64,000 bases of DNA from Stieleria varia (GTDB lineage Bacteria > Planctomycetota > Planctomycetia > Pirellulales > Pirellulaceae). The notes under the pieces were generated by a model that was not told where the DNA came from, searched no databases, and was given only the letters and a program-made list of their open reading frames with translations. Below, piece by piece: positions 2,671-52,395 of this stretch (position 1 is the first letter of the stretch; every line of letters begins with the position of its first letter). Location: assembly GCF_038443385.1 (NCBI RefSeq), contig NZ_CP151726.1:4216001-4280000 (forward strand). The letters run 5' to 3'. Made by a program: the position numbers and the translations under genes.

Positions 2671-3810
2671 TTGAACGGAAATCCCCGGGTCGTCTATCGT
2701 ATTCTAGATGCCTCCGCGAATCGAGCAGGAGAAGGCCTGCGGACGCTGGAGGAGTATGCTCGATTCGCACGCGATGACGCTGAGATGTCCGCAGAGATCA
2801 AGTCGCTGCGACACGATCTCGCCAATCTAATGAAGCGGTTGGATCGCGACGCATTGCTTGCCGCCCGCAATGTGCGTTCGGATGTGGGCACAACCATCCA
2901 AACCAAGTCAGAATATCAGCGAACAGACACGCTCGATGTCGTCGTCGCGGCAGGCACCCGCGTTGCTCAATCGATGAGATGCTTGGAGGAATACGGGAAA
3001 ATTCTCGATCCAGAATTCTCCAAGGGGATTGAGTCCCTGAGATACCGCGTTTACATCGTCGCCGCAAACATCGAACGAAGCCTCCTCAGGGACCGGGGAA
3101 CGTCGACGGCCGATGACCAATCGCCAGGTGATGTTCGGACCGGGCCACAACGTCGGGACTTGCTGGCCGGGGCAATGCTCTACGCTTTGGTGGACGTGTT
3201 TAATACCGCCGAGAAGCTGCTGTCACATTGTGATCAACTCACGCAATCCGGCGTGGACATCATCCAATTGCGTGACAAGAACACGGATGATCGAACACTC
3301 TATGAACGATCTGTCGTTCTTGCGCGTCGATTGCAGTCCACCAACACGCTCTTGATCATCAATGACCGAACCGACATTGCGATCGCGGCCGGCGCCGACG
3401 GCGTCCACTTGGGGCAATCGGAATTGCCGATCCGAGAAGCGAGGCGGATGCTGGGTTCCGATCGTCTGATCGGGGCATCGACGCACACGATCGAACAAGT
3501 TCACCGGGCGATCGGCGACGGCGCCGACTACATCGGATGCGGCCCCGTCTTTCCGGGGGCGACCAAGTCCTTTGATCATTTCCCCGGCGTGGAGTTTTTG
3601 GGGCAAGTGCACTCGTCAACCGTGGAGACTCCACGCCCGGCGTTTGCCATCGGCGGCATCAATGAGCACAACATCGAACGAGTCCTCGATGCAGGATTTC
3701 ATCGGATTGCCGTGTCAGGTGCGATCAGAGACGCGGCGTCTCCGGGAGATGCCGCCGCCGCCCTCAAGCAACGCTTGCTCGACTCACGTCGCTGGCGGGC
3801 CGTTGATTGA
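2671..3810 (+). CDS. thiE: fused ThiD2-like domain plus thiamine-phosphate synthase
   Basis: 379 residues. The N-terminal part (about 8-140; YRILDASANRAGEGLRTLEE) matches the ThiD2 domain known from cyanobacterial ThiE fusions, assigned to HMP-phosphate kinase. The C-terminal part (about 168-375) is ThiE, joining HMP-PP and thiazole phosphate into thiamine phosphate: IIQLRDK, IINDRTD, DGVHLGQ, YIGCGPVF, AIGGI, AVSGAI. The fusion would cover two successive steps of thiamine synthesis in the cytoplasm. The only in-frame start before the conserved YRILDA segment is TTG 2671, without an SD. The last codons and the TGA stop lie within the inverted repeat of an intergenic element (3792-3909), so the present C-terminus is partly repeat-derived. 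Confidence 0.9.
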   Translation: MNGNPRVVYRILDASANRAGEGLRTLEEYARFARDDAEMSAEIKSLRHDLANLMKRLDRDALLAARNVRSDVGTTIQTKSEYQRTDTLDVVVAAGTRVAQSMRCLEEYGKILDPEFSKGIESLRYRVYIVAANIERSLLRDRGTSTADDQSPGDVRTGPQRRDLLAGAMLYALVDVFNTAEKLLSHCDQLTQSGVDIIQLRDKNTDDRTLYERSVVLARRLQSTNTLLIINDRTDIAIAAGADGVHLGQSELPIREARRMLGSDRLIGASTHTIEQVHRAIGDGADYIGCGPVFPGATKSFDHFPGVEFLGQVHSSTVETPRPAFAIGGINEHNIERVLDAGFHRIAVSGAIRDAASPGDAAAALKQRLLDSRRWRAVD

Positions 3811-3909
3811 GTGAGCCGCGACGCGTAAGCGGCCGGACTTAAAACGCTGCCCGGTGCCTTACGGCTCACCCTTGCGTCACCAATCTTGGCTAGATCAACG
3901 GCTCGCTAG
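3792..3909. repeat. palindromic repeat, family E, covering the thiE stop
   Basis: 118 bp with imperfect inverted ends: CTGGCGGGCCGTTGAT on the left, ATCAACGGCTCGCTAG on the right. The interior carries a GTGAGCCGCGACGCGTAAGC arm and a CCGGTGCCTTACGGCTCACC arm. Close copies lie at 56297-56421 and, inverted, 61220-61344; a half copy lies near 56563-56590. The left end encodes the last residues and stop of thiD2-thiE. Confidence 0.8.
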
Positions 3910-3921
3910 CCTGGCATTGAA

Positions 3922-4260
3922 TCACTGCTGCGATTGCAGCATCTGTGCGCGAGCCATCGCGTCTTCGGCTTTCTGAATGTAGGTCTGATCTTGCGTGCCC
4001 GCCCATGCTCGTTGATAGGTCACGCTCATCGCGGTGAAATTGAACGAGTCGGTCGGCTCCAATTCACACGCTTTCTCGCCATGCTCGATGGCTTCGGCGT
4101 GTTGGCCTGTCTTGGTGTAGACACGTGCGAGTGCCAAGTGCGCCAGGACAAACGATTCGTCTTCGGCGACAATCGCCTTGAGTCCATCGATCGCTTCGGT
4201 GAACTTTTCATCGTCGATCAGTTTTTCGACGTCGTTGTATTGGGCGTGAAGATCGCTCAT
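3922..4260 (-). CDS. small TPR-repeat protein
   Basis: 112 residues (MSDLHAQYNDVEKLIDDE...). Helical TPR pattern: EKFTEAIDGLKAIVAEDESF, VLAHLALARVYTKTGQHAEA, IEHGEKACELEPTDSFNFTA, then a third helical pair. No signal peptide or membrane span, so a cytoplasmic adaptor is likely. Similar small TPR proteins are common in planctomycetes without assigned function. It ends 12 nt from the family E repeat and starts upstream of the ppdK terminator on the same strand, so it has its own promoter or weak read-through. Confidence 0.75.
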   Translation of the reverse strand: MSDLHAQYNDVEKLIDDEKFTEAIDGLKAIVAEDESFVLAHLALARVYTKTGQHAEAIEHGEKACELEPTDSFNFTAMSVTYQRAWAGTQDQTYIQKAEDAMARAQMLQSQQ

Positions 4261-4402
4261 TGGAATCTATCGTAGGAAAATTGGGTTTGAACGGGGGCCA
4301 AAAAGTTGACCCCATTAAACGTCATCTCGCACGACGACGAAAGGGAGGCGAGCGGGTCAGGCAGCGGATTGCTCGCCTCGCCCGACTCAACGGTTGCAGC
4401 AA

Positions 4403-4437
4403 GAAAAAAGCCTTCCGCGGATCAACCGCGAAAGGCT
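4403..4437 (-). terminator. intrinsic terminator of ppdK
   Basis: On the minus strand AGCCTTTCGCGG, loop TTGAT, CCGCGGAAGGCT, then TTTTTTC. The 12-bp stem has one G-T wobble and starts about 43 nt after the ppdK stop. Confidence 0.88.
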
Positions 4438-4479
4438 ATGAGTTATCCAGATGCTGCTGTGCAGCAGATCAGCTGATGA

Positions 4480-7119
4480 CTAGCTATTGATCAGGGCTGC
4501 TTGAGCGGCGGCCAGTCGGGCGATCGGCACACGGAAGGGGCTGCAGCTGACGTAGTTCAATCCTGCACGGTGGCAGAATTCAACCGAGCTTGGCTCGCCG
4601 CCGTGCTCGCCACAGATACCGACCTTGAGGTCCTTCTTGGTCGAACGTCCCTTTTGAACGCCCATCTCGACCAATTGTCCCACGCCGGTTTGGTCCAGGG
4701 ACTGGAAGGGGTCGACCAACAGGATGTCCTGGTGCAGGTAATCTGGCAAGAACGTTCCCACATCGTCACGGCTGTACCCGAACGTCATTTGCGTCAGGTC
4801 GTTTGTGCCGAAACTGAAGAAGTCTGCGTATTGAGCGACGTCATCTGCGGTCAAGCAAGCACGTGGGATTTCGATCATCGTGCCGATCGAGATATCCAAC
4901 TTGCCGGAGAACTTCTTCGCTTCGATGGTCGATGCGATGGTTTCCTCGACCTTGCCACGCAGCAGCTTCAATTCGGCAGCAGTGCCGACCAACGGGATCA
5001 TGATTTCAGGCATCGCCTTGATCTTGCGTCCCGCACAGTTGATCGCTGCTTCTACGATCGCACGGACTTGCATCTCCAGGATTTCTGGATAGGTGATGCT
5101 CAAGCGGCAACCGCGGTGACCCAGCATGGGGTTCGACTCGTGCAAGGCCTCGGAACGCTTCTTGATTTCCGCAGGCTTTACACCGAGTTCGGTCGCCATG
5201 TCTTTTTGCGCGGCGGCTTCGTGAGGCAGGAACTCGTGCAACGGCGGATCCAGTAGACGCACGGTCACGGGCAGGCCGTCCATCGCTTTGAAAATGCCTT
5301 CAAAGTCTTTGCGTTGGAAAGGCAACAGCTTCTTCAGGGCAGCGCGTCGATCCTTTTCATCTTGTGCCAGAATCATCGAACGCATGTGGATGATGCGATC
5401 TGGCTCAAAGAACATGTGTTCGGTACGGCACAGGCCGATGCCTTCGGCGCCGAAATCACGTGCACGTTTGCTGTCTGCGGGTGAATCCGCATTGGTGCGA
5501 ACGGCAAGGGTGCGGAACTCATCCGCCCACTTCATCAATTGGGCAAAGTCACCGGAGAGCTTCGGCTCTTGGGTCTCGACTTCACCCAACATGACTTCGC
5601 CGGTCGTTCCGTCCAAGCTGATGACGTCGTTGACGCCGAGCGTCTTTCCGTTGACCTTGATCTTGCGACCTTTCTCATCGATTTCGACATCGCCGGCTCC
5701 GGCGACACAGCATTTACCCCAACCGCGAGCAACCACGGCGGCGTGGCTGGTTGCACCACCGGTGCTGGTCAAGATGCCGACGGCGGCGTTCATGCCGTCG
5801 ACGTCTTCGGGGCTGGTTTCGCGACGCACCAGGATGACTTTTTCGCCGGCATCTGTACGCTCACGAGCTTCTTCAGCCGAAAACGCCAGCTTGCCGACGG
5901 CGGCACCTGGCGAAGCATTGATACCACGGCAGAGAACATCCGCTGCGTTGCGAGCGGTCGGTTTGAAACTGGGCAGCAACAGTTGGGTCAAGTCGTTCGC
6001 AGGAACCCGCATCACGGCGGCTTTCTTGTCGATCAACTTTTCCTTGACCATGTCGCAAGCGATCTTGACGGCTGCGATACCGGTACGCTTGCCGGTACGC
6101 GTTTGCAGCATGAACAACGTTCCACGCTCGATCGTGAATTCGATGTCTTGCATTTCCGCGTAGTGCGTTTCGAGCGTCTTTTTGACTTCGAGCAACTCCT
6201 TGTAGATCGCACGATTCCACTTCGGCATGTCGGCGACTTGCTCGGGAGTACGAATCCCGGCCACGACGTCTTCGCCTTGAGCGTTGACGAGGAACTCGCC
6301 GAAGAACTTGTTTTCGCCGGTGTTGGGGTTACGGGTGAAAGCAACTCCGGTTCCGCAGTCGTCGCCCATGTTGCCGTAGACCATCGACTGGACGTTCACG
6401 GCGGTACCGAGCAGACCACGGATGCCTTCGATCTCACGGTAGCGGACGGCACGTGACGTGTTCCACGATTCGAAAACCGCTTTGACCGCCAGTTCCAGTT
6501 GCTTGACGGGGTCCTGAGGGAATTCCTCGCCGGTGTGTTGCTTGTAGACATCCTTGTACTCATCGCACAATTGCTTCAGGCCTTCGGCGGGCACGTCGGT
6601 GTCTTCGCTGACCTTGTACTTCTTTTTGATCTTATCAAAGGCTTTTTCGAATTGATGGTGATCCATTCCCATCACCACGTCGCCGAACATGTTGATCAAG
6701 CGGCGATACGCGTCGTAAGCGAAACGTTCGTTCTTGGTGGCTTTTGCCAAGCCGGCGGTGGAGACGTCGTTCAGACCCAGGTTCAGAATCGTGTTCATCA
6801 TGCCGGGCATGCTGACGGCAGCGCCGCTACGGACGCTGACCAGCAACGGATTGGACTCGTCGCCGAACTTTTTGCTGAGTTCTTTTTCCATCGTCGCGAT
6901 GGCCTTGTCGACTTCCTCCATCAAGCCGCTGGGCAATTGCTTGCCCGCTTTGTAGTAGGCGTCACAAACTTCGGTCGTGATTGTGAAACCGGGAGGGACT
7001 GGCAGTCCGATGGAGGTCATCTCTGCCAGATTCAACCCTTTGCCGCCAATGAGGGTCTTGGACTTTCCTTTGCCTTCGGTCTTTGTCTTGCCGAAGTAGT
7101 AAACCATCTTGTTCGCCAT
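4480..7119 (-). CDS. ppdK: pyruvate, phosphate dikinase
   Basis: 879 residues, the normal length of PPDK, which interconverts pyruvate + ATP + Pi and phosphoenolpyruvate + AMP + PPi in the cytoplasm. N-terminal ATP-grasp part with GGKGLNLAEM near residue 26 and VRSGAAVSMPGMM near 97. Central swivelling domain with the phospho-accepting His near 457 in TGGATSHAAVVARGWGK. C-terminal PEP/pyruvate TIM barrel with GICGEHGGEPSSVEF near 835, containing the catalytic Cys. ATG 7119 gives the expected MANKMVYYFG start. Transcribed alone, ended by a strong terminator, and divergent from cysS across a 568-nt region. Confidence 0.97.
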   Translation of the reverse strand: MANKMVYYFGKTKTEGKGKSKTLIGGKGLNLAEMTSIGLPVPPGFTITTEVCDAYYKAGKQLPSGLMEEVDKAIATMEKELSKKFGDESNPLLVSVRSGAAVSMPGMMNTILNLGLNDVSTAGLAKATKNERFAYDAYRRLINMFGDVVMGMDHHQFEKAFDKIKKKYKVSEDTDVPAEGLKQLCDEYKDVYKQHTGEEFPQDPVKQLELAVKAVFESWNTSRAVRYREIEGIRGLLGTAVNVQSMVYGNMGDDCGTGVAFTRNPNTGENKFFGEFLVNAQGEDVVAGIRTPEQVADMPKWNRAIYKELLEVKKTLETHYAEMQDIEFTIERGTLFMLQTRTGKRTGIAAVKIACDMVKEKLIDKKAAVMRVPANDLTQLLLPSFKPTARNAADVLCRGINASPGAAVGKLAFSAEEARERTDAGEKVILVRRETSPEDVDGMNAAVGILTSTGGATSHAAVVARGWGKCCVAGAGDVEIDEKGRKIKVNGKTLGVNDVISLDGTTGEVMLGEVETQEPKLSGDFAQLMKWADEFRTLAVRTNADSPADSKRARDFGAEGIGLCRTEHMFFEPDRIIHMRSMILAQDEKDRRAALKKLLPFQRKDFEGIFKAMDGLPVTVRLLDPPLHEFLPHEAAAQKDMATELGVKPAEIKKRSEALHESNPMLGHRGCRLSITYPEILEMQVRAIVEAAINCAGRKIKAMPEIMIPLVGTAAELKLLRGKVEETIASTIEAKKFSGKLDISIGTMIEIPRACLTADDVAQYADFFSFGTNDLTQMTFGYSRDDVGTFLPDYLHQDILLVDPFQSLDQTGVGQLVEMGVQKGRSTKKDLKVGICGEHGGEPSSVEFCHRAGLNYVSCSPFRVPIARLAAAQAALINS

Positions 7120-7687
7120 GGTTGATCTCTGTGAAATCCGTCTTAGAAAGGGGGCGTAAATACGGCGTCAGGGTGACCGGGAATCTCCGCAGTTGGGAGA
7201 ATCCTGGCGTCCGACCGCAGTGAAAATTGCAGTGAAATGAGACCAGAAAAATGGCCCTGGGCTCGAAACGCAAGAAACCATGGGAGACGGTTTCTGAGCG
7301 AGGGGAATGCCGAGCCCAGCCGGGGCCCTGCCAGCCCTGTCGGGGCCCTGCCGGCCCGACGGGGACCGCCAAGCGGCCATTAGCGTATTTCAGGGCCGAG
7401 ATTTGGTCAATGAGCCTATCCATCGCCACTTCTGCAATTGCGGATCAGCCCATCGAATCGCCCTCGGCGATTTCCCGCTTGCCCCGTACAATCTAGATCG
7501 ATGAGCTCGATTGCTCCGAAAAATCCCGCCGTTGAGGCTCGTCCCCAGACAAGGCTCGTCTTGCCCAGAACACGCCCTAAAGCCTAAAAAGCCCAGCGGA
7601 GCCTTCAGAAGGACCAGCGGAATAGCCTCCTGATCAGCGGCAAAGTCGCCTGATCTCTACCAGAACATTTCTACAAGCACAGTCAGC
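7120..7687. other. divergent ppdK-cysS intergenic region
   Basis: No convincing gene. There is a GC-rich patch near 7316-7370 with short repeated GGGGCCCTGCC units. At 7487 a TACAAT hexamer is followed nine nt after its end by an ATG opening a 28-codon frame (7501-7587), a possible leaderless upstream ORF of cysS. Both ppdK and cysS promoters should be here, but no -35/-10 pair is clear. Confidence 0.4.
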
Positions 7688-9295
7688 ATGAGTACCGCGA
7701 CAGCCTCCAGTCACTCGCACGTCCTGCCCGCCACCGGCCAACTCCGCGTCTACAACACGCTCAGCAAGACGAAGGAGCCGTTTGAGCCGCTTGAGCCGCC
7801 CAAGGTCGGTATCTATCTGTGCGGACCCACCGTCTACGCGGAATCTCACATCGGCCACATGGTCGGCCCCGTGATCTTTGACACGATCAAACGGTACCTG
7901 ACCTACTGCGGCTACCAAGTCACATGGGTCGTCAATATCACTGACGTGGACGACAAACTGATCAACAAGAGCAAGGAGCGTGGGATCCCGATCTGCCAAA
8001 TCGCGACCGAAATGACGGCCGATTACTTGGCCAATCTACGTGAATTGGGGGTCAATCAAATCGACCACATGCCTCGGGCAACCGACTACATCGGCCACAT
8101 CATCCGATTCATCCAGCAGTTGGTGGACAAGGACCACGCATACGCGGTCGATGGCGACGTGTTCTTTGACGTGGCCAAGGACCCTCGCTACGGACAACTT
8201 TCCAATCGACGCAGCGACGATCAGCAGGGCGAAGGCGGCGGAGCAGCGGCCAAGAAACGATCCCCCGGTGACTTTGCCCTCTGGAAATCCGCCAAAGCAG
8301 GTGAGATCGCTTGGGACAGCCCTTGGGGCTCCGGCCGACCCGGATGGCACATCGAGTGCAGCGCCATGAGCCACGAGATCCTCGGTAAGACCTTTGATAT
8401 CCACGGCGGCGGCTTGGACTTGATGTTCCCCCACCACGAAAACGAACTGGCACAAAGTAGCTGCTGCCACGACGCGCCGATGGTCAAATACTGGATGCAC
8501 AACGGCCTGATGCGAGCCGGTGAGAAAGGCAAGGTCGGTGGCAAGAGTGACCGCGACGACCAAGCCGCCAATGAGGCGTCGACCGAGGAAGCCGCATCGG
8601 GCAAGATCAGCCGCAGCAAAGGCGCCGGCGGATTGTCCGATCTGATTCGCCAACAGACCGGCGAGCGGATCCGTTTCTTTCTGCTCCGCACGCACTACCG
8701 ATCGACCATCGTTTACAACAACGAAGGACTCGAGGAAGCAGGCACGTCGCTGGAGGCTTTTTACCGTTTCTTTGCCCGCTACCAGGAAATCACCGGCGAG
8801 TCGTTCTATGCGATCGACGTCGCCAAGACCCGAGCAGCCGGCGAATTTGATCCCGCTCAAGACGAATTGCTGAAGCAGGTCCACGAGCTACGTGAAAAAT
8901 ACCTCGCAGCCATGGACGACGATTTCAATACCGGAGCCGCGATCAGTACGCTGTTCGATTGGCTCCGCATGCTCAATCGTCACATGGACCAAAACAATTT
9001 GGCTGCAGGTGCCGACGCTGACTCACCCGCCGTCCGCTCGCTTGCTAAAGCCACAGAAGTGTTTCGTGAGCTGGCCTCGATTCTCGGGCTGTTCGTCAAA
9101 GCTCCGCCGCAAGGAGGCGGTGACGATGACTCAGCGGACTTACTCGATCAAGCCATCCGGTTGCTGATCGATCTACGCAAAGAAGCACGCGAGAAAAAGG
9201 ACTACGCCACGGGCGATGCGATTCGTGATCGCTTGACCGCGATGGGCATCGCTTTGTTGGACAAGAAAGAAGGGACCTCGTGGGAACGAAGCTGA
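7688..9295 (+). CDS. cysS: cysteinyl-tRNA synthetase
   Basis: 535 residues, class Ia synthetase charging tRNA-Cys. Core features: [14 protein letters not shown] with a HIGH box at 54-57 and C45 as a zinc ligand, [18 protein letters not shown], and [10 protein letters not shown] before the helical domain. It is longer than the roughly 460-residue bacterial norm. About 30 extra residues (charged, Glu/Ala/Ser-rich) sit just before the KMSKS loop, and the loop itself reads KISRSKG near 304 rather than KMSKSLGN. The overall frame is intact, so this looks like a lineage variant and not decay. The last 16 nt overlap ruvC, implying translational coupling. Confidence 0.96.
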
Positions 9296-9798: not shown

Positions 9799-9883
9799 TG
9801 GAGAGTCGCCGTCAGCATCGCTGGTGACCAGGCTAGGCGCCATCCAGATCGCGAATCAAGCTTTCATCTCACATAAACAAAAC

Positions 9884-25698: not shown

Positions 25699-27183
25699 AT
25701 GAATCCGCTACAACAGAACCACCAGCATCTCAATCGACGCCACTTCTTTGGCCGCAGCGCGACCGGGATCGGCACGGCGGCGCTCGCCAGTTTGCTGGCC
25801 AAAGATGGCTTCTCTGCCAACACAATTGCCGACACGCCCGTTGCCGAAAAGCCACGATTCGGGGGTTTGCCCGACCTGCCGCACTTTGCCCCCAAAGCGA
25901 AGCGGGTCATCTATCTGTTTCAGAACGGAGCACCGACCCACGTCGACTTGTTCGACTGGAAACCGAACCTCAAGAAACTGCACAAAGAGCCCGTTCCGTT
26001 GTCGTACATCGGTGACCGCCGATTCAGCACGATGACGGGCAAGGCTGATGGCAAGCTACTGTTGGCACCGATCGAACCGTTTGCCCAACATGGCGAGAGC
26101 GGCGCATGGGTCAGCGAATTAATGCCGCACACCGCCAAGATCGCCGACGAGTTGTGTTTTGTCAAAAGCATGCACACCGAGCAAGTCAACCATGCCCCAG
26201 CAATCAACTTCATGCTCAGCGGCGGCGAGATGCCCGGCCGACCGACCGCCGGCGCCTGGTTGACTTATGGCCTGGGCAGTGAGACCGATGAGCTGCCATC
26301 CTTTGTCGTGATGACCAGCATCACCAAAGACACTTCGTGCGGCCAGATCTTTTACGATTTCTACTGGGGCAGCGGCTTCCTGCCCTCTCGATTTCAAGGC
26401 GTCAAGTTTCGCGGCAGCGGCGATCCTGTCTTGTACGTTTCCAACCCGGACGGAATGAGCCGAGAGATGCGGCGTGGGTGGCTGGACGATATCGCGGCGA
26501 TCAACGAATTGAAACTGCAAGAGTATGGAGACCCCGAGATCGCCACGCGGATTGCTCAATACGAAATGAGTTTCAAGATGCAATCCAGTGTTCCAGAGCT
26601 GGCTGATTTGTCCGGCGAGTCCCGCGAGACCCTGGAAATGTACGGACCGGGAGTGCAAGAACCGGGAACCTTTGCCCACAACTGCTTGCTCGCTCGTCGA
26701 TTGGTCGAGCGCGGCTGCCGGTTTGTCCAACTGATGCACGCCGGCTGGGATCAACACAACAGCTTGACCACCGAACTGTACAAGCAGTGCCGCGACACGG
26801 ACCAATCCAGTGCGGCGTTGGTGCGAGACCTCAAACAGCGCGGGCTATTGGAAGACACGCTGGTGATTTGGGGCGGTGAGTTCGGACGCACCCCGTTCTT
26901 GCAAGGCGACATCAACAATCGAGAGCGTTGGGGACGCGACCATCATCCCTACGCTTACACGTTATGGATGGCCGGCGGCGGTGTCAAACCGGGGATCAGC
27001 TATGGCGCGACAGATGACTTGGGAATCAACGTCGTCGAGAACCCGGTGCACGTGCATGATTTCCAGGCGACCTTGTTGCACCTGTTGGGGGTCGACCATG
27101 AGCGGTTGACCTACAAATTCCAAGGCCGCCAATTCCGCTTGACCGACGTACACGGCCACGTCGTCAAAGACATCCTCACGTAG
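25699..27183 (+). CDS. DUF1501 exported protein, Tat-type signal
   Basis: 494 residues, start ATG 25699 with GAAGGA upstream. Near the N-terminus, NRRHFFGRSATGIGTAALAS is a twin-arginine signal. The body matches DUF1501, a sulfatase/alkaline-phosphatase-like fold: VIYLFQNGAPTHVDLFDWKP, KSMHTEQVNHAPA, FVQLMHAGWDQHNSL, VIWGGEFGRTPF, GRDHHPYAYTLWMAGGGVKPG. The conserved D/H residues would bind metals. It pairs with the preceding cytochrome-type gene as one unit. Its TAG stop lies inside a palindromic repeat (27177-27267). Confidence 0.93.
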   Translation: MNPLQQNHQHLNRRHFFGRSATGIGTAALASLLAKDGFSANTIADTPVAEKPRFGGLPDLPHFAPKAKRVIYLFQNGAPTHVDLFDWKPNLKKLHKEPVPLSYIGDRRFSTMTGKADGKLLLAPIEPFAQHGESGAWVSELMPHTAKIADELCFVKSMHTEQVNHAPAINFMLSGGEMPGRPTAGAWLTYGLGSETDELPSFVVMTSITKDTSCGQIFYDFYWGSGFLPSRFQGVKFRGSGDPVLYVSNPDGMSREMRRGWLDDIAAINELKLQEYGDPEIATRIAQYEMSFKMQSSVPELADLSGESRETLEMYGPGVQEPGTFAHNCLLARRLVERGCRFVQLMHAGWDQHNSLTTELYKQCRDTDQSSAALVRDLKQRGLLEDTLVIWGGEFGRTPFLQGDINNRERWGRDHHPYAYTLWMAGGGVKPGISYGATDDLGINVVENPVHVHDFQATLLHLLGVDHERLTYKFQGRQFRLTDVHGHVVKDILT

Positions 27184-27267
27184 GCGAGTCTCTCCGTGAC
27201 TCGCAAAATACTCGCAAAATCGAGCCGAAGTCTCGATGTTCGCGTCTCGGAGAGACGCGGCTACGTG
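27177..27267. repeat. CACGTAG-ended palindromic repeat, family H, covering the DUF1501 stop
   Basis: 91 bp starting CACGTAGGCGAGTCTC and ending GAGACGCGGCTACGTG (14 of 16 inverted matches), with internal small hairpins (GCGAGTC/GACTCGC; GCGTCTCGGAGAGACGC). A second, left-arm copy lies at 29034-29082 and a right-arm fragment near 22536-22563. The DUF1501 stop codon is the TAG of CACGTAG. Confidence 0.8.
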
Positions 27268-35731: not shown

Positions 35732-35744
35732 GATTCGATACCGT

Positions 35745-40001: not shown

Positions 40002-40058
40002 CCCGCTAGCCGATGAATTGCCCGCTAGCCGATGAATTGCCCGCTAGCCGATGAATTG
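40002..40058. repeat. 19-bp tandem triplication at the DUF1552 gene end
   Basis: Three exact, adjacent copies of CCCGCTAGCCGATGAATTG. On the minus strand each encodes the last residues QFIG and a TAG stop, so the true stop (40044-40046) is followed by two duplicated copies of the gene end. It includes CTAG. Confidence 0.95.
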
Positions 40059-41450: not shown

Positions 41451-41493
41451 TGGATAGGTGAGCGACGCTTGGCAGGTGCGGTGTGTTCGATGG

Positions 41494-41568: not shown

Positions 41569-41574
41569 GTTTGT

Positions 41575-44202: not shown

Positions 44203-44241
44203 TCTAGTCCGAATTTTCCATCAGCCGCAGCGTGATAAACA

Positions 44242-44300
44242 CCGTAATGGATTTCGCCAGAAATCCCCTGCGAAAGGAATTCTGGCGAATCCCATTACGG
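44242..44300. repeat. family A palindrome, copy 3, covering the gluQ stop
   Basis: 59 bp with ends CCGTAATGGATTTCGCCAGA and mirrored GAATCCCATTACGG. The best-preserved copy. On the minus strand its right end supplies the TAA stop of gluQ. Confidence 0.92.
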
Positions 44301-45236
44301 GGTGGAGGGTGGGGCGAACTCCGTATCGTCGACCACGACGGGGTTGCGATTCAGTTGCTGCCAGCCGAATGAACTGATCAGTTCAGTTGCAGTGACCGGT
44401 CCGCGAGTATCGATCAGGCCTGCGCTGTTCGCCGCCCAGCCGACGATTCTTTCCGGTGCGACTCCTCTTTCGCGAAAGTGACTCAGTCGCGTGTCGCCGT
44501 GTCTCTTTGCCAACCGTCGTCCATCCGGCCCGGTGACGAGCGGGACGTGCGCATAGCTGGGAACTTCGTAGCCCAATGCGTTGATCAAATCCAATTGGCG
44601 AAACGTGCTGGCGACCAAGTCGTCACCTCGAACGATCTCCGTCACCACTTGGTCTGCATCGTCAACAACCACAGCGAGTTGATAGGATGGGCTGCCTGTT
44701 TTCTGAGTGACGGGAAAGTCGCCCAGTGTTTGCGCGGGATTGCAGGATTGCCGACCAAGCACCAGGTCGTCGAACTCGATCGTCGCATCGCGGGCTCGAA
44801 ATCGCCAACAGAAGGAACCCTCAGGCGGCAAAGTGTCGCCGGACTGCCAGTGAGAACAGGTCCCCGGATAGACAGGACCTTCGCCGCGAAAAGTGCTTTC
44901 GTGAGGCGCAGACGCGGCTTCTGCGATGTCTTTTCGCGAACAAGTACACGGATAGACGCTGTTGTTCGCGATCAGTTGGTCCAGCGCAGTGTGGTACAAG
45001 TCCAAACGCTCGGTCTGCACGATGGGTTCCCCATCCCAGTCAATCCCCAGCCATTGCAAGTCATCGATCGCTTGCTGAGCCGCCCATGGTTTGACCCTGG
45101 GTGAATCGACATCTTCGATCCGAAGCCGCAGCGAACCACCCGAGCGGCGGACGGACCAGTAAGCCAGCAGGAACGTTCTCGCGTTTCCCAGATGTTGCGC
45201 TCCTGTGGGTGATGGCGCGAGTCGGCCCGTTATCAT
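44295..45236 (-). CDS. gluQ: glutamyl-Q tRNA(Asp) synthetase
   Basis: 313 residues. A truncated GluRS paralogue without the anticodon domain that places glutamate on queuosine of tRNA-Asp. Signatures: GRLAPSPTGAQHLGNARTFL with the HIGH-like box, LRIEDVDSPRVKPWA, zinc site CTCSRKDI ... YPGTCSHW (Cys-x-Cys, Tyr, Cys), QLAVVVDDADQVVTEIVRGDDLV, and LAKRHGDTRLS as the KMSKS-like loop. Start ATG 45236. The C-terminal codons (PPSTP) and TAA stop run into a family A repeat. Confidence 0.93.
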   Translation of the reverse strand: MITGRLAPSPTGAQHLGNARTFLLAYWSVRRSGGSLRLRIEDVDSPRVKPWAAQQAIDDLQWLGIDWDGEPIVQTERLDLYHTALDQLIANNSVYPCTCSRKDIAEAASAPHESTFRGEGPVYPGTCSHWQSGDTLPPEGSFCWRFRARDATIEFDDLVLGRQSCNPAQTLGDFPVTQKTGSPSYQLAVVVDDADQVVTEIVRGDDLVASTFRQLDLINALGYEVPSYAHVPLVTGPDGRRLAKRHGDTRLSHFRERGVAPERIVGWAANSAGLIDTRGPVTATELISSFGWQQLNRNPVVVDDTEFAPPSTP

Positions 45237-45389
45237 GTCTCTTGGTTCCCTGGACTTCCGTACTCCATCAAGTGTAGCGGATCCGCGGCCTACGTTGTCA
45301 CGACTCCGGCCAATGGGATAAACTGTAGGCAGTGTTCTTGGAGAGCACTGAAGTGGCTTGTGGTCGATTTCTCAATCACTGACGTGTCC

Positions 45390-45809
45390 ATGCCTGTCGA
45401 AATGCATTTGGCTCGGATCATCATTTCTGAGCTTACTGAGAATCAACTGATTTACTTAAAGGAAGTCGACGGAGAGCGAGAGTTCCCGATCTTGATCGGA
45501 ATCTTTGAAGCGACCAACATCGATCGACGCGTCAAAGAGGTCGACTACTCACCACCGCGACCACTGACGCATGATCTGGTCGTGCGAGTCGCGGAGTCAC
45601 TCGGCGCGATCATCGAAAGTGTGATCATCAGTGACCTTAGCGATCAGACTTACTATGCGTTGTTGCGTCTGCGTGACGAGAATGACGAGCTGATCGAAAT
45701 CGATTGTCGGCCCAGTGATGCGATCGCGGTCGCGGTGACGTTTTCGCCCCAGTTGCCGATCTTCGTCGCCGAGCACGTGCTGGACGAAGCGACTTCGACG
45801 CCCTTTTGA
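45390..45809 (+). CDS. bifunctional nuclease family protein (DUF151)
   Basis: 139 residues from ATG 45390 (MPVEMHLARIIISE, the family-typical beginning); a GTG at 45360 would add ten residues. DUF151 core: LKEVDGEREFPILIGIFEA, IVESVIISDL-type strand, YYALLRL, ELIEIDCRPSDAIAVAV, PIFVAEHVLDEA. The plant homologue BFN has RNase and DNase activity; bacterial roles are unclear. It lies 46 nt before panC on the same strand; this order has no obvious functional logic. Confidence 0.88.
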   Translation: MPVEMHLARIIISELTENQLIYLKEVDGEREFPILIGIFEATNIDRRVKEVDYSPPRPLTHDLVVRVAESLGAIIESVIISDLSDQTYYALLRLRDENDELIEIDCRPSDAIAVAVTFSPQLPIFVAEHVLDEATSTPF

Positions 45810-45855
45810 TGATCCCACCGGATAATCCACCAGGACAGCCTGCGGGCGGCATGAC

Positions 45856-46710
45856 ATGGAACGTTTGACGACGCCTGAGCAGGCGTACCAATTCGTGATG
45901 CAGCGGCGGATGCGAGGCGAAACCGTCGGCCTCGTTCCGACAATGGGGGCCTTGCACGAAGGTCACTTGTCGTTGGTGAAGCTGAGCCGCCAGACTTGTG
46001 ATCACACCGTCGCCACCATCTTTGTCAATCCGACCCAGTTCGCGCCGACGGAGGATCTGTCGAAATATCCACGGACTCTGCAGCAAGACTGCGACTCACT
46101 GGAACGCATGGGTACCGATGCGGTGTTCCTGCCGGCCAACGAAACGATGTATCCGGATGGATTCAGCACGATGGTCGGTGTCCCGGAAGTCGGCAAGACG
46201 CTGGAAGGTGTCTGTCGTCCGACTCATTTCCAAGGTGTCACGACGATCGTCCTGAAATTGTTCAACCTCTTGCCGGCAACCCATGCCGTCTTTGGCAGCA
46301 AAGACTACCAGCAACTGCGAGTGATCGAAGCCATGGTGCGGGACCTGAATGTTCCCATCGAAATCGTCCCAGGCAAGACGGTGCGTGAGCCCGACGGTCT
46401 GGCCATGAGTAGTCGAAATCGCTATCTCTCCGAAGGCGATCGTCGGCGCGCGTTGCTGTTGTCCGCTGCACTCAATCGCGCCAGCGAAATGACTCAAGAC
46501 GGCGTGTCCAGCGTTTCGGACTTGGAATCCGAAATGCGGCGCGTGCTACTTGGATCGGCGGAAACCGCCGGCGTGGACAAGATCGACTATGCAACCGTTG
46601 TGGATGCGAGGACGCTTTGCCCCATCGATCAGCTTCGTTCGCCGGCGATTGCTTTGATTGCGGCTTACGTCGGTCAAACGCGATTGATCGACAATCGCAT
46701 CCTGTTGTAA
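45856..46710 (+). CDS. panC: pantothenate synthetase
   Basis: 284 residues. Joins pantoate and beta-alanine using ATP. Signatures: VGLVPTMGALHEGHLSLV with the HIGH-like box, FVNPTQFAPTEDLSKYPRT, VCRPTHFQGVTTIVLKLFNL, AVFGSKDYQQLRVI, REPDGLAMSSRNRYLS with the KMSKS-like segment, and a C-terminal dimer/lid part. Normal length, ATG 45856. panB is not adjacent. Confidence 0.96.
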   Translation: MERLTTPEQAYQFVMQRRMRGETVGLVPTMGALHEGHLSLVKLSRQTCDHTVATIFVNPTQFAPTEDLSKYPRTLQQDCDSLERMGTDAVFLPANETMYPDGFSTMVGVPEVGKTLEGVCRPTHFQGVTTIVLKLFNLLPATHAVFGSKDYQQLRVIEAMVRDLNVPIEIVPGKTVREPDGLAMSSRNRYLSEGDRRRALLLSAALNRASEMTQDGVSSVSDLESEMRRVLLGSAETAGVDKIDYATVVDARTLCPIDQLRSPAIALIAAYVGQTRLIDNRILL

Positions 46711-46790
46711 AAACCGGTGATGTTGCAACGACCTACGCGTCGTTTCGGCCGAGCCAACTGGAATTCACCTCTCAATAGAACAACCGATTC

Positions 46791-47762
46791 ATGATTCGAC
46801 GCATTTTGGTCACCGGTGGAGCCGGTTTCTTGGGCTCGCACCTTTGCGAACGCTTGGTCGACGACGGGCACGATGTTATCTGCCTGGACAACTTTTTCAC
46901 CAGCCAAAAAACCAACGTCGCGCATCTGTTGGATCGACCGAATTTTGAACTGATTCGGCACGACATCACGTTGCCGATCTATTTGGAAGTCGACCAGGTC
47001 TACAACATGGCTTGTCCGGCAGCACCCGGGCATTATCAGTACAACCCGATCAAGACGATCAAGACCAGCGTGTTGGGCTCCATCAACATGCTGGGCGTCG
47101 CCAAGCGTTGCGGGGCCAGGATCCTGCAAGCGAGTACCAGCGAAGTCTACGGGGATCCTGAAGTGCACCCGCAGGTGGAAAGCTATCGAGGCAGCGTCAA
47201 TCCGATCGGTATTCGTGCCTGTTATGACGAAGGAAAGCGGGTGGCGGAGACGTTGTTCATGGACTATCACCGCAGCAACAACGTGGACGTTCGCATCGTT
47301 CGGATTTTCAACACCTACGGACCTAGAATGCATCCGTACGATGGTCGCGTCGTGTCGACGTTCATTCGCCAAGCACTCGCTGGTGAGAACATCACGATCT
47401 TTGGCGACGGTTCGCAGACGCGTTCGTTCTGCTACCGAGACGATTTGGTGGATGTCATCATCCGGATGATGAACAACGAAGATGGCTTCGTCGGTCCCGT
47501 GAATATCGGAAACCCAGTCGAGTTCACGATCCGAGAACTTGCCGAACAGGTCATCCAGATCTGTGGATCGGGCAGCAAGCTCGTCGAGCGACCGTTGCCG
47601 TCCGATGATCCGACACGACGTCGTCCCGACATCAGTCTGGCCAAAGAAAAACTTGGTTGGGAGCCAAAGGTGCCGTTGGCTGTCGGCTTGCAGCAAACCA
47701 TCGATTGGTTTCGGACCATCAACGTCTCGGACTACCGTCCGCCCACACCGAATTTTACGTGA
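46791..47762 (+). CDS. UDP-glucuronate decarboxylase (UDP-xylose synthase)
   Basis: 323 residues of extended SDR type. [20 protein letters not shown] binds [56 protein letters not shown], then Y-x3-K in [62 protein letters not shown]. The combination FFTSQK / [10 protein letters not shown] / HPYDGRVVS is typical of UXS, making UDP-xylose for surface glycans. It converges on the ABC permease gene with only 10 nt between stops. Confidence 0.93.
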
Positions 47763-47772
47763 GCTGCATCCA

Positions 47773-49380
47773 TCAATCACGCTGCCAGCGAATGGCCAGC
47801 AGTCGGGCGATGACCAGGAATGCGACACCGCACAATGTCAGAACGACGAGCTGAGGCCACAGCGTGCTGACCGGCAACTCTCGCCAGAATACTTTGTCGT
47901 ACCCATCCAGTGCCCACGCATTGAATGTCCAAAGTCCGACGTCTCGCATCTGCTGGCTCATCACATAACGGGGCACCATCGAACCGCCCAATGCGCTCAT
48001 GGTCAGAATCAAGATCACGGACAGACCGTTGAGCTGACCGCGTGTCTTGCACAGCGTGGCCAGCATCAGTCCGAAGGCGGCCGCGGCGAACGAAGTCACG
48101 GTGGTCATCATCAAAAATCCGTCCCAATGGCCGATCACGTTGACGCCAAAGACGAGTTGCCCCCAGGCGAACATCACAGAGACTTGGACGATCCCCAGCA
48201 GAGTCAGATAAAACCATTTGCCCAGGATCAGTTGGTCCATGGTCAATTGAGTCGACAACAAACGATCCAAAGTCTGGTTCTCGCGTTCCTCCAACAACGC
48301 CCCACCGCCACTGGTCGACCCGAACAGCAGGAACATCACGGCGATTCCGGCGGCATACATGCTGACGACCGGGTTGGACTTTTGGTCGCCGATGACATCG
48401 ACAATCTCAACGGGCGATTGAGAAAGCAGATCCGTGTCACCGGTGAACTGGCTGCCGGGGCCGGTGCTTATTTCCGGTCGCCCGATGTCATCAATAGCAC
48501 CACCCTCGGCGGGTGCGTTGTAGGAAGCGGGTGCGATGTCACCCAATGGTGTTGAGTTGCCCGTACGTGTTGAGTTGGATGTCAGTTCCGTCGGCCGCAA
48601 TGATTGCCAAGGGCGCTCGGTGTCTGTTTCCGGAGACGGATTTTCGGGGGAATCCTCCGTCGGCTGGCGGATCGGCTCGGAAGTCGGATTGCCACGCTGC
48701 TGCAACGTGGTGCTCGGACGCATCGGCGACACGTTGGTCGGAGTGGCTTGCAGAGGCCGTGGCGGAGTGGGCGACGATTCTTCGGTGTCACGCGGCTCGG
48801 TGTCGCGAGGCTGACTTTCTTGCGGCTCGGCGGTCGGGTTGGCAGCTTGGTCGGATGTTGGCAGTTGCGAAAAATCGATGGCGGGCATCGACTGCAGCGC
48901 CATTTCCTCATCTCGTTGCAGCGCCGCCATACGATGCTTTGCTTGAGTCATCATCAGGGATCGCCCCACCAACGCCGAGACAACTTGTCCGGCCACTTGA
49001 TCGGATGCATCCGTCAGCAGTTGAGCGGTGATGGGTTGCTGATCACTGTCTTTGCTTTGTAAAACAATCGCCAGTGTCACGCTGCCGCTGCGGACCAATC
49101 GCTCGGCTTGAGCGCGGGTGAGTTTTTGTCCCGAGTCGGCTCGCATGACACGTAGGCCATCGTTTTCTCGCAACGATTGAGACAGCTCGGTGCTAGTCGA
49201 CGTGTTGGACTCGTCCACCACGACGACTTTGATGCGTGGTGTCGATCCGCTGCCGATGCCTTTGCCAAAAATCAATGCAAAGACGCTAAAGAAAGCGATG
49301 GGGACGACGAAGGCGAGCAGCAACTCGACTCGATTGTGCAGCAGCCGGCGAAGGCTGATCATCATGACAGTACGTATCAT
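47773..49380 (-). CDS. ABC-2 type permease with large extracytoplasmic insert
   Basis: 535 residues. One N-terminal helix (LLLAFVVPIAFFSVFALIFG), a long soluble region (about 40-355) and about five C-terminal helices (YAAGIAVMFLLFG, WFYLTLLGIVQVSVMFAWGQL, VTSFAAAAFGLMLA, LSVILILTMSALGGSMV, VVLTLCGVAFLVIARL), as in ABC-2 exporters of the YhgE/DrrB-like class. About 130 residues of the soluble part (185-315) are Pro/Thr/Ser/Glu-rich and low complexity. The ATP-binding partner gene ends 5 nt upstream. Exported substrate unknown. Confidence 0.9.
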   Translation of the reverse strand: MIRTVMMISLRRLLHNRVELLLAFVVPIAFFSVFALIFGKGIGSGSTPRIKVVVVDESNTSTSTELSQSLRENDGLRVMRADSGQKLTRAQAERLVRSGSVTLAIVLQSKDSDQQPITAQLLTDASDQVAGQVVSALVGRSLMMTQAKHRMAALQRDEEMALQSMPAIDFSQLPTSDQAANPTAEPQESQPRDTEPRDTEESSPTPPRPLQATPTNVSPMRPSTTLQQRGNPTSEPIRQPTEDSPENPSPETDTERPWQSLRPTELTSNSTRTGNSTPLGDIAPASYNAPAEGGAIDDIGRPEISTGPGSQFTGDTDLLSQSPVEIVDVIGDQKSNPVVSMYAAGIAVMFLLFGSTSGGGALLEERENQTLDRLLSTQLTMDQLILGKWFYLTLLGIVQVSVMFAWGQLVFGVNVIGHWDGFLMMTTVTSFAAAAFGLMLATLCKTRGQLNGLSVILILTMSALGGSMVPRYVMSQQMRDVGLWTFNAWALDGYDKVFWRELPVSTLWPQLVVLTLCGVAFLVIARLLAIRWQRD

Positions 49381-49385
49381 CTGGC

Positions 49386-50405
49386 TCAGTCTCGCAGCTC
49401 GTTGCCGGTCAGATGCAGAAACACGTGATGCAGCGTCGGAGAGTGAATCTCCAAATCGGTAACTTCGTATCCATGGCTGCGTACGGCGTCGATCAGAGGA
49501 GCGAGTTGTAACGCGATGTCTTCGATCCGCGTATCGAACGCCCGTTCGCCGGTTTTGCCAACGCGACCTGCGCGCGTGCCCCAGATCGGCAACGGTTCTG
49601 TGATCGGTTCACTGAGTTTGACCCGGACCATTCGTGAGCTGCCCAGGGTTTGATCGATCAGGTACTCCAAATCACCGTCAGCGATCACCTCTCCTTTGTC
49701 AACGATCACGATCCGGTCGGTGCTCTGCTGGGCTTCATCCAAATGGTGTGTCGTCAAAAGTATCGCGGTTCCGTTTTCGTTCAACTCGTCCAGCATGGTA
49801 AAGATGCGTTGACGGCTTTGGGGGTCCACGCCGACGGTGGGTTCATCCAACAGGATGATGTTGGGTTGGTGCAGGACGCCGCATGCCAAGTTGATTCGGC
49901 GTTTCATGCCCCCCGAAAAGCTGCCGACCAATTCGCGAGATCGAGTCTCCAAGCCAGTCCATTGCAACGCCCACTTCACTCGATCCTGGAGGTTGCGTCC
50001 CCGCAGTCCATGAAATCGCCCGAATGCGGCTAGGTTTTCGCGAGCGGTGAGGTCGGCATAGAGCGCCAGATCTTGAGGGACGAACCCGAGCGAGTTGCGT
50101 GCTTCAGGGCTTTCAATGGGTTCGCCCAGCAATTTGATCGAGCCGCTGGTCGGTTTGGTTCTCCCCGCGATCATGCGAATCAGGGTGGTTTTACCGGCAC
50201 CGTTTGGTCCCAACAACGCCAACCTTTCGCCTTGCGCGAGCGTGAAACTGACGCCGCGAACCGCTTCGGTCGAACCGAACGATTTGTGCAGATCGTTGAT
50301 TTGCAGTGCGGGGTGGCTGGAGCGAATCAAGTCGGTGGGTCCAATGGTATTCGCGGCATTCTCGGTTAGCATTGTTGCAACGGGGACATTGTGGCAAAAA
50401 GGCAT
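49386..50405 (-). CDS. ABC transporter ATP-binding protein
   Basis: 339 residues from ATG 50405 (ATG 50372 and GTG 50417 are alternatives; none has an SD). Walker A LLGPNGAGKTT, Q-loop FVPQDLALY, signature GSFSGGMKRR, Walker B IILLDEPTVG, H-loop LLTTHHLDEA. DrrA/CcmA-like class with a C-terminal extension that may be regulatory. Energises the adjacent ABC-2 permease; the pair forms one unit on the minus strand. Confidence 0.95.
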   Translation of the reverse strand: MPFCHNVPVATMLTENAANTIGPTDLIRSSHPALQINDLHKSFGSTEAVRGVSFTLAQGERLALLGPNGAGKTTLIRMIAGRTKPTSGSIKLLGEPIESPEARNSLGFVPQDLALYADLTARENLAAFGRFHGLRGRNLQDRVKWALQWTGLETRSRELVGSFSGGMKRRINLACGVLHQPNIILLDEPTVGVDPQSRQRIFTMLDELNENGTAILLTTHHLDEAQQSTDRIVIVDKGEVIADGDLEYLIDQTLGSSRMVRVKLSEPITEPLPIWGTRAGRVGKTGERAFDTRIEDIALQLAPLIDAVRSHGYEVTDLEIHSPTLHHVFLHLTGNELRD

Positions 50406-50655
50406 GCTCTGAGTCACGACGAACCCGTCAGGATTCCCTGCGGATTCCGGGCGGATTGGGCAAGTTGGTCCGGAATGCTGGTTTGGCGCACTGAGTTGAA
50501 ACGCAGTGGGATTTCGGAGAACATTGGTTTTTAAGACTGGTTTTCACTGGTTTGGGCTGCGCAGCACGCTTTTGCCACTCAAAATCAGCGTCCAACTCGG
50601 TGCTTACTGCTATTCTTTTTGCCTCGTTCGCCCCCTATCGCTGCCCTGAGCCCTC

Positions 50656-51219
50656 ATGAGCGACCTCGACGACTCTCCGCCGGAAATCCAGACGCCGACA
50701 CTGTGGCAGCAGAATCACGGCAATTTTCTGTTGTTCTGGGTGATTGCAATCACCCTGGTCGGGTTCATCGTTCTGTATGCACGACCCGACTTGCCCGTCG
50801 AGCCGCCCGTTGATTCGACCGTGGAGTTGTTGGAGGCCAGCGACGTGGGGCCATCGTTGGTTGTCCGAGTCACGGGCAAAGAGGACATGCCACCGGGGGA
50901 GGTCAAGATCGCGATTTACGACTCTGCGGAGGCGTTTCGAGACCCGTCCAAAGCCTATTTGAAACATTCGGTCCCGCACGAAAACGGAATCGCCGTCTGG
51001 CTGATACCGACGGAAGAGCTGCCATCGAGCTTTGGCGTTGCTGCGTACATGGATAGCGACGGTGATGGCGAGTTGACCAAGAACCAACTCGGGATGCCGC
51101 TTGAGCCGTTCGGATTCTCACGCAATGCGCGAGGGCTGTTCGGGTCGCCACCAGAGTTTGGCGACACGATCTTGAATCGCCCAAGTGAGACATCGCAAAT
51201 CGAAGTCTTGTTGCGCTGA
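50656..51219 (+). CDS. membrane-anchored DUF2141 protein
   Basis: 187 residues. Short cytoplasmic N-terminus, one membrane helix (about 23-42, NFLLFWVIAITLVGFIVLYA), then a DUF2141 beta domain: VKIAIYDSAEAF, ENGIAVWLIP, FGVAAYMDSDGDGELTKNQL, GMPLEPFGFSRNARGLFGSP. The DSDGDGEL loop resembles a calcium site. Exported side; function unknown. Downstream DNA is repeat-rich for more than 1 kb. Confidence 0.82.
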   Translation: MSDLDDSPPEIQTPTLWQQNHGNFLLFWVIAITLVGFIVLYARPDLPVEPPVDSTVELLEASDVGPSLVVRVTGKEDMPPGEVKIAIYDSAEAFRDPSKAYLKHSVPHENGIAVWLIPTEELPSSFGVAAYMDSDGDGELTKNQLGMPLEPFGFSRNARGLFGSPPEFGDTILNRPSETSQIEVLLR

Positions 51220-51302
51220 ACGATCCAGCCAACTGGGCTGTTCAAAATTTGGCTTTGTGGCACTGTGACGCACCGCAAGTTTCTGTCACCTCTCCCGGCG
51301 CA

Positions 51303-51433
51303 GGAGACTGCTGATTGAATCGTTTTTCGTTATCACTGTGAGCCGATGGCGCTAGCCACGGGCCTCGAAGGGTTGGGACAGCACCATTAGGCCCGCGGCT
51401 AGCGCCTTGCGGCTCACTAAATCAGCAGTCTCC
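51303..51433. repeat. palindromic repeat with GGAGACTGCTGATT ends
   Basis: Inverted ends GGAGACTGCTGATT and AATCAGCAGTCTCC, inside them GTGAGCC...GGCTCAC and GGCGCTAGCC...GGCTAGCGCC arms. Related in layout to family E, with different ends. Confidence 0.8.
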
Positions 51434-51487
51434 GCAGCTGGGGGAGGTCGGATCGAGCGAAGCAAGATCCGGGAGGGGGCCTACGCT

Positions 51488-51710
51488 GGGCTGTTCAAAG
51501 TTTGGTGTTGACATTGTTTTTTCAGTTCATGATTTTGTTCCATGCATCGCAATCAAAGTGAGCCTCAGGCGCTAGCCGTGGGCCGGCACCACAATCCGCC
51601 TCAGGTCCACGGCTAGCGCCTGAGGCTCACTGGGGTTACCAGCTGCGCCGGCAGTAGGGACATAAACTTGCGCAAACTCAAAACGACCCAACGCCAAATT
51701 TTGCCAGCCC
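51488..51710. repeat. family D inverted-repeat element, short copy
   Basis: 223 bp with imperfect ends (left GGGCTGTTCAAAGTTTGGTG). The interior holds a CAGGCGCTAGCCGTGGGCC palindrome. The complement matches much of the larger family D element at 56084-56545, so the two are in opposite orientation. No ORF; MITE-like. Confidence 0.82.
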
Positions 51711-51714
51711 ACCA

Positions 51715-51807
51715 CTAGCCCGGATTATTCACAACCCGACGCGTCAGCGAGGGATACTCGGTAAATCCCTCGCTTACGCGGCGGGTGATGGAAAAGCGAA
51801 GCACTAG
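51715..51807. repeat. CTAG-bounded hairpin element, family B, truncated right end
   Basis: Starts CTAGCCCGGATTATTCA, then a long hairpin whose arms are AACCCGACGCGTCAGCGAGG and a near mirror. The usual right end is missing; it stops at the CTAG shared with the next element. Confidence 0.8.
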
Positions 51808-52395
51808 TGCATCGTCCAGTCTTAGAGCGTGGGTTTGGTAGATGAGCCGTTTTGGCGTTAGCCACGGTTTTCTTAGAACGTGGGTTCGGTAGATGAGCCG
51901 TTTTGGCGTTAGCCACGGTTTTCTTAGAACGTGGGTTCAGTAGATGAGCCGTTTTGGCGTTAGCCACGGTTTTCTTAGAACGTGGGTTCGGTAGATGAGC
52001 CGTTTTGGCGTTAGCCACGGTTTTCTTAGAACGTGGGTTCAGTAGATGAGCCGTTTTGGCGTTAGCCACGGTTTTCTTAGAGCGTGGGTTCGGTAGATGA
52101 GCCGTTTTGGCGTTAGCCACGGTTTTCTTAGAACGTGGGTTCGGTAGATGAGCCGTTTTGGCGTTAGCCACGGTTTTCATAGAGCGTGGGTTCGGTAGAT
52201 GAGCCGTTTTGGCGTTAGCCACGGTTTTCTTAGAACGTGGGTTCGGTAGATGTGCCGTTTTGGCGTTAGCCACGGTTTTCTTAAAACGTGGGTTCGATAG
52301 ATGAGCCGTTTTGGCGTTAGCCACGGTTTTCGTGACACAACCGTGGCTATCGCCAAAACGGCTAACCCCAAAATCAAGACCGGACGATGCACTAG
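51804..52395. mobile_element. CTAG-bounded palindromic element, family C, with a tenfold 51-bp array
   Basis: 592 bp. Terminal inverted repeats of 20 bp: CTAGTGCATCGTCCAGTCTT left and its mirror right, one mismatch. Inside, exactly ten head-to-tail 51-bp units (51821-52330; a typical unit contains CGTTTTGGCGTTAGCCACGG), then a single inverted arm (52339-52363) complementary to part of each unit. A sibling at 63188-63320 has one unit and one inverted arm. No transposase; a non-autonomous, MITE- or REP-like element is the likely class. The reading frame through the array is a by-product of the 51-bp period. Confidence 0.85.

Follow-up and report, generated by a model that had tools for sequence, protein, structure and literature searches.

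Why do the stop codons of unrelated genes come to lie inside dispersed repeats? The question is raised by a 64,000-nucleotide stretch of the Stieleria varia genome (the window; C1:4216001-4280000 of a genome that is one contig of 9,719,866 bases), where an earlier note, made from the sequence alone, had placed the stops of five genes within repeats belonging to several lettered families. On re-checking, we confirmed the coordinates and reading frames of all five cases, which are as follows:

2671-3810, plus strand: thiD2-thiE gene; its TGA stop lies inside a family E copy.
25699-27183, plus strand: DUF1501 gene; its stop is the TAG of the GTAG tag of a family H dimer.
40002-40058: 19-bp tandem triplication that repeats the last codons and the CTAG stop of a DUF1552 gene; single locus.
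44295-45236, minus strand: gluQ; the GTAA tag in a family A dimer provides its TAA stop.
52392-53735, minus strand: BcsL-like GNAT gene; its stop falls within the CTAG that borders a family C element.

Four of the five stops do lie in dispersed repeats, but the DUF1552 triplication had to be rejected as such a repeat because its sole match in the genome is itself; no DUF1552 paralogue in the examined sequence reached the end region, where only the gene itself was matched, twice. The best explanation for the overlap, and one that we consider probable, is that repeats crowd outward from stop codons and that some repeat ends happen to spell TAG or TAA. In the mechanism that we propose, intergenic repeats would begin at the stop codon and run outward, crowding within ~30 nt, for the most part where genes converge, and several families would have ends that supply the TAG or TAA. 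Two kinds of element account for the four dispersed cases, although not for all of the stops in repeats that we found in a larger sample.

That sample consists of the window and 40 evenly spaced 20-kb stretches, 864 kb in total (L-numbers such as L188 below are labels of individual sequence stretches). Gene ends were taken from a home-made codon-score caller, which misses some genes and gives 485 complete stops and a coding share of 80% in the sample. Repeats were marked by self-BLAST as sequence with at least three hits inside the 864 kb, a rule that rare repeats escape. Stops inside repeats number 24 of 485 in the sample and 4 of 38 in the window. By codon, the 24 are 13 TAG, 8 TGA, and 3 TAA, so that TAG makes up 13/24 as compared with 135/485 of all sample stops; the earlier note had argued that no single codon explains the pattern, and three codons do occur among the five named stops, but TAG is used in three of them.

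The overlap is some threefold above that of shuffled blocks. With 169 repeat blocks on the stop sides of genes, 22 overlaps with a stop were observed versus 6.4-6.8 when the blocks were moved inside their own intergenic region (a shuffle that models placement and leaves insertion history outside), and none of 500 shuffles reached 22. Without the window, the count is 18 versus 5.5; convergent regions give 16 versus 5.4 and codirectional regions 6 versus 1.3, and the start sides show no excess of repeat overlap over the shuffles. Stop overlap thus exceeds random intergenic placement (22 versus 6.8), which is the comparison by which the earlier note proposed to judge its observation.

The excess belongs to a wider zone. 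The first repeat edges occur at 0.7-1.0 per kb between -30 and -6 nt, at 3.4-6.2 per kb between -6 and +30 nt, and, farther out, at 2.1 per kb between 30 and 45 nt and 1.3-1.5 per kb between 45 and 120 nt. Repeat coverage of genes has fallen to background (0.8%) by ~20 nt upstream of the stop, and the pooled edge density at stops is no higher than in the next 30 nt. Taken together, the repeats occupy a 3′-proximal zone that has the stop codon as its inner limit. In codirectional regions only 1 of 48 edges lies in -6..0, and repeats make up 39% of convergent, 18% of codirectional, and 6% of divergent intergenic sequence. The earlier note had offered, as one of two possibilities, that only insertions at gene ends survive. 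This fits in that repeats shun starts as well as coding sequence and occupy the zone running outward from the stop; the zone would then have been made by purifying selection and not by insertion bias.

The first kind of element, bordered by CTAG, comprises families C and F; family C is present in the window as follows:

51804..52395: family C element that a 51-bp tandem array extends from the usual 133 bp to 592 bp.
52392..52395, minus strand: border CTAG whose minus-strand TAG is the BcsL-like stop; this end is shared with four same-genus orthologues.
63188..63320: standard family C copy, CTAG...CTAG, 133 bp.

The array in the enlarged copy comprises ten near-identical 51-bp units (window 51820-52331). 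Most family C copies measure 133 bp from CTAG to CTAG, with a mean identity to the consensus of 98.8% over 48 copies, and the end pattern matches 95 + 86 times on the two strands of the genome. From these 181 ends we examined 141, namely 101 in the first 4.99 Mb and 40 elsewhere, the latter biased to near-identical copies. Using a search pattern that does not itself contain CTAG, we found CTAG directly before 93 of the 101 ends and 39 of the 40. Eleven of the 141 ends, in 10 elements, overlap a gene end (six in the first 4.99 Mb and five in the remainder), and all of them do so in exactly the same register, at -4, with TAG as the codon. One gene with a C copy at its stop encodes a YchF-type GTPase, in which the C-terminal domain before the copy was matched over 82 of 84 positions.

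These borders suggest how a stop could survive an insertion. Family C is a 133-bp miniature inverted-repeat transposable element (MITE) with IS630-type ends that is located at CTAG and carries CTAG on each side. IS630, an insertion sequence (IS), is said to transpose preferentially to the TA in 5′-CTAG-3′, a finding attributed to Tenzen and Ohtsubo in 1991. Unlike IS630, which is autonomous and has a transposase gene, family C is without one, and its mode of transposition would be that of its IS630 relatives, by analogy. Because an element at CTAG has CTAG on both sides, insertion into a CTAG stop would rebuild the stop and leave the protein unchanged. In keeping with insertion at CTAG, an uninserted copy of one repeat context has a single CTAG (L108, compared with the occupied copy in L194/L195), in a comparison where 6 of 56 C elements gave any match and several matches were short; TA and CTAG are indistinguishable as the duplicated unit.

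The supply of CTAG would then set how often family C meets a stop, CTAG being scarce in coding sequence and frequent at TAG stops and between genes. Outside repeats, the 487 CTAG sites of the sample fall into 29 stops, 200 intergenic sites, and 258 coding sites, and free CTAG reaches a density of 23 per kb in the stop bin as compared with 0.25-0.8 immediately upstream and 0-3.4 downstream. Stops therefore make up 29/229 (12.7%) of free non-coding CTAG, or 35/430 (8.1%) when CTAG in repeats is included. Elements recovered with both ends sit at stops in 7 of 55 cases (Fisher p = 1.0 versus 29/229 and 0.30 versus 35/430), and those in the first 4.99 Mb in 6 of 58 (p = 0.82, with the total taken as 57). 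Since these shares match the supply, we rejected a preference of family C for stops beyond what CTAG provides, and the earlier note's other possibility, that insertion is targeted to gene ends, finds no support for this family: it sits at CTAG, and its stop share equals the free non-coding supply. For the repeats taken together, targeting may still play a part. A stop share predicted from CTAG supply alone is a clean test of targeting versus survival at gene ends.

Family C was also seen in unusual settings. In L109:1209-1633, three C copies follow one another, and between them lie 13-nt units from a short tandem array that has CTAG within it. Short hairpins preceded by GTAC (TACGTCAGCCTTTCCAGGCTGACAT) occur in the window at 55872-55898 and 63831-63894, and some variants with CTAG carry C copies.

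The second kind of element comprises families A and H:

27177..27267: family H dimer, in which both GTAG-tagged hairpins have their tags outward.
27180..27183, plus strand: GTAG tag that supplies the TAG stop of DUF1501; five of nine paralogues end at this residue.
44243..44299: family A dimer of GTAG/GTAA-tagged hairpins resembling repetitive extragenic palindromic (REP) sequences.
44295..44298, minus strand: GTAA tag whose TAA is the gluQ stop.

Both families are REP-like hairpins of the GTAG type, in which the unpaired GTAG or GTAA tag yields the TAG or TAA. Family H units are hairpins with a 9-bp stem after an unpaired GTAG tag (GTAG in 43/53), and among 92 family A units 35 have GTAG and 36 GTAA, together 71/92. 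They share with GTAG REPs the defining form of a 20-40 bp hairpin with an unpaired GTAG-type tag. Searches of the genome DNA scored no more than 40 candidates, which makes the family sizes lower bounds; for families A, H, F, and E, we used the 30 best-matching loci of each. The stop is inside the matched stretch at 3/30 loci of H (two in the tag and one TAA at the edge) and 1/30 of A, and it lies within 30 nt at a further 11/30 and 9/30, respectively. A gene for the transposase associated with REPs (RAYT) was not detected by a protein-motif search in the part of the genome examined. Near position 15234 of L156, a TAG stop lies in GTAG with a GTCATGCTCCGCATGAC hairpin behind it, which may represent another family of GTAG-tagged repeats.

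Do such stops alter the proteins? For the BcsL-like gene, eight loci were examined, and the four same-genus orthologues end identically after SKL (SKLx-stop) while using TAA, TGA, TGA, and TAG as stops. The last residue of the DUF1501 protein is reached by 5 of 9 paralogous matches and the last but one by one more; among the five, those in the sample (L160, L172, and L185) have stops that are not in repeats. These two genes thus share their ends with relatives, and in the cases tested repeat-overlapping stops appear to leave the protein mostly unchanged. A stop codon within a repeat is not in itself proof of a remodelled protein.

The thiE end is different, and here the families E and F come in:

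3791..3910: family E copy past thiD2-thiE; right border CTAG, left border CTGG in place of the CTAG that most copies shown carry.
3793..3795, plus strand: TGG codon in place of the border TAG, in the thiE frame; possibly a former stop.
3808..3810, plus strand: TGA stop of thiE, within the family E terminus.
56297..56421: family E copy bordered by CTAG on either side, next to other repeats that bear CTAG.
63317..63424: family F copy with the end CTAGCCCGGATNATTCA; its border CTAG is common with the C copy at 63188..63320.

The thiE product here is ~5 residues longer than expected from its relatives: in 12 of the 13 same-genus orthologues the protein stops 5-8 residues sooner (the one in L297 ends later), and in six matches from outside the genus the end position varies. 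A mutation may have removed a former CTAG stop, so that reading continues to the following stop, the TGA in the E terminus. A second E copy with a CTGG border is present in L007, and the border of the thiE copy may therefore have arrived already mutated. In family F, TAG stops occur at -4 in 4 of 56 borders, which are four of the five F ends that overlap a gene end. In L188, a DUF1501-like gene reads into the F terminus in another frame, and the element supplies the stop and a short tail. The earlier note's statement that repeats remodel C-termini thus finds little support among the genes tested: the ~5 extra residues of thiE and the L188 tail speak for it, but the BcsL-like and DUF1501 ends match those of relatives. 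Its proposed comparison with orthologues is similarly divided: the BcsL-like end is unchanged (as is that of DUF1501 against paralogues), and the thiE end is extended. The same note had listed repeat copies that end close to other stops; the stop of the TPR gene (3922) is indeed 12 nt from the E copy, but the ExeA-like open reading frame (ORF) ends in a CTAG (55852-55855) at which no element was recognized.

Several observations weigh against our explanation. The 24 sample stops divide into 6 CTAG, 3 GTAG, 3 TTAG, 1 ATAG, 8 TGA, and 3 TAA, and CTAG and GTAG tags together leave more than half of them unexplained. Blocks exceed the shuffles 3.2-fold at stops but 1.6-fold over the adjoining 3-33 nt, and the densest bin of convergent regions is -6..-3 (15 edges per kb), so that stop overlap may exceed what is merely the tail of the zone. 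Family E borders coincide with stops in 0 of 48 cases, and a looser family A pattern gives GTAG/GTAA in only 27 of 157 matches, although it probably takes in unrelated sequence. All gene ends rest on the home-made caller: 3 of the 11 C overlaps depend on low-scoring gene calls (15, 15, and 18), and a further C end, on the other side in L224, is inside a called gene with a score of 8.6. Four more distant BcsL-like matches (32-34% identity) fail to align at the end. Finally, a transposase with C ends was not found in the genome; a search with an 85-residue transposase fragment, described below, gave no match, although such an empty result says little by itself and a partner with diverged ends could escape, and the two DDE_3 hits of the genome are both without C ends.

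The 3.2-fold excess at stops is also what one would expect if the elements were steered to gene ends, for example by terminating transcription complexes or terminator DNA, so that targeting and not survival places them there. High edge density is confined to the stretch between -6 and +30 nt, with an about threefold or greater drop even in convergent regions, and since downstream promoters cannot explain a drop there, this counts for steering. However, family C tracks CTAG and its stop share equals the CTAG supply, and its 101 ends in the first 4.99 Mb include 30 that face a stop at a distance above 100 nt and 41 that face a start at such a distance; we think steering unlikely. Somewhat doubtful, too, is the idea that gene-end repeats are kept as hairpins useful to the host, which would protect 3′ ends, aid termination, or, as has been reported for REPs near stops, control translation. 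The hairpin predicted for family C is strong (-84.6 and -91.1 kcal/mol on the two strands), and a stop is inside or within 30 nt at 10/30 of the best-matching loci of A and 14/30 of H, but none of the 29 relatives searched has the C end pattern in its exact form, which argues against an old conserved role for C.

Still less probable, in our judgment, is that repeats generally replace native gene ends and create new C-termini. The ~5 extra thiE residues from the E terminus and the L188 DUF1501-like gene that stops within the F terminus are real instances, yet the BcsL-like and DUF1501 ends agree with relatives, and repeat coverage is already at background (0.8%) ~20 nt upstream of stops, leaving outward crowding combined with TAG- or TAA-spelling repeat ends as the reading we prefer.

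Where might family C have come from? The 20-nt C end pattern is also found at the end beside a gene fragment for an IS630-type transposase C-terminus in Rhodopirellula rubra. This 85-aa fragment matches NF033545 with 44.4 bits (E 1.4e-11, below the cut-off of 100) and DDE_3 with 27.3 bits (E 3.6e-6, below the cut-off of 28.6). Family C thus has two marks of an IS630-type MITE, namely ends shared with an IS630-family element and insertion at TA with its duplication, CTAG being preferred. Among the 29 relatives (13 of them same-genus) the exact end pattern occurs in none, so element C is found only in this genome of 30. The pattern does occur in eight stretches of named genomes (own-genome records possibly having been left out): two in R. 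rubra, one in a Blastopirellula metagenome-assembled genome (MAG), two in a Planctomycetaceae MAG, two in a Caldilineaceae MAG, and one in a Proteobacteria MAG. Short CTAG-to-CTAG elements with C ends and other interiors were seen in L302 and L306 (145 bp each) and in L307 and L308 (79 bp each), from a Planctomycetaceae MAG and a Caldilineaceae MAG.

Stop codons encoded by repeats are already known from BOX elements and GTAG REPs (PMC3049150, PMC3733652). The GTAG-tagged REPs described by Di Nocera and co-workers in 2013 resemble families H and A: they are short hairpins whose GTAG tag is unpaired, and many of them form dimers; their termini often supply the stop codon of flanking ORFs, they lie mainly between convergent or unidirectional genes, often <20 bp from the 3′ end in the genomes described, and baltica is named among the species where different REP families coexist (PMC3733652). 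Family A differs from them in having GTAA as often as GTAG. In pneumococcus, repeats are overrepresented between convergent genes, and 36 coding sequences are reported to have a BOX-encoded stop codon, with orthologues giving no strong evidence of truncation (PMC3049150, 2011); BOX is unrelated to the families here by name and kind, and the available part of that source makes no mention of a CTAG target for it.

Closer to family C is RUP of pneumococcus, described as an IS630-Spn1-like MITE of 107 bp with IS630-family-like ends, a TA target, and intergenic location (PMC2229807, PMC3049150). Family C differs in its length of 133 bp, in having CTAG at nearly every border, in its presence in one genome of 30, and in that no partner IS was found. 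ISY100, an IS630 relative, is reported to duplicate TA (PMC2170065), and MITEPsy1 of Pseudomonas syringae is assigned to ISPsy2, labelled IS5 with a question mark, and not to IS630 (PMC3189936). In the titles and abstracts listed by our searches, we found no stop codon rebuilt by CTAG insertion and nothing related on Rhodopirellula MITEs. The new part is an IS630-type MITE that would rebuild CTAG stops: the target word of a transposon can coincide with a stop codon, and insertion can then be protein-silent.

Family C is also found within genes, although rarely. Only two C elements lie in well-scoring genes, even though 258 of the 487 non-repeat CTAG sites are coding:

L234:1497-1629: C copy near the N-terminus of a sulfatase gene; +43 codons in frame.
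L254 ~1501-1633: C copy in a condensation/AMP-binding gene, shortly past the condensation stretch ending at residue 185; +43 codons in frame.

The net gain per C insertion is 129 nt, or 43 codons; two of the six frames of the C consensus are open, both in the same orientation, and both coding copies use these two frames. It is conceivable, and we offer it tentatively, that C is unusually harmless in that its target rebuilds TAG stops and its open-frame gain of 129 nt lets it sit in genes in-frame.

Two other features of the window were noted:

1615-1725, minus strand: c-di-GMP-I-GGC riboswitch (Rfam RF03167, 61.6 bits).
60984-61142: GTTCTTG heptamer, ~22.7 mismatch-free repeats where a small ORF ends.

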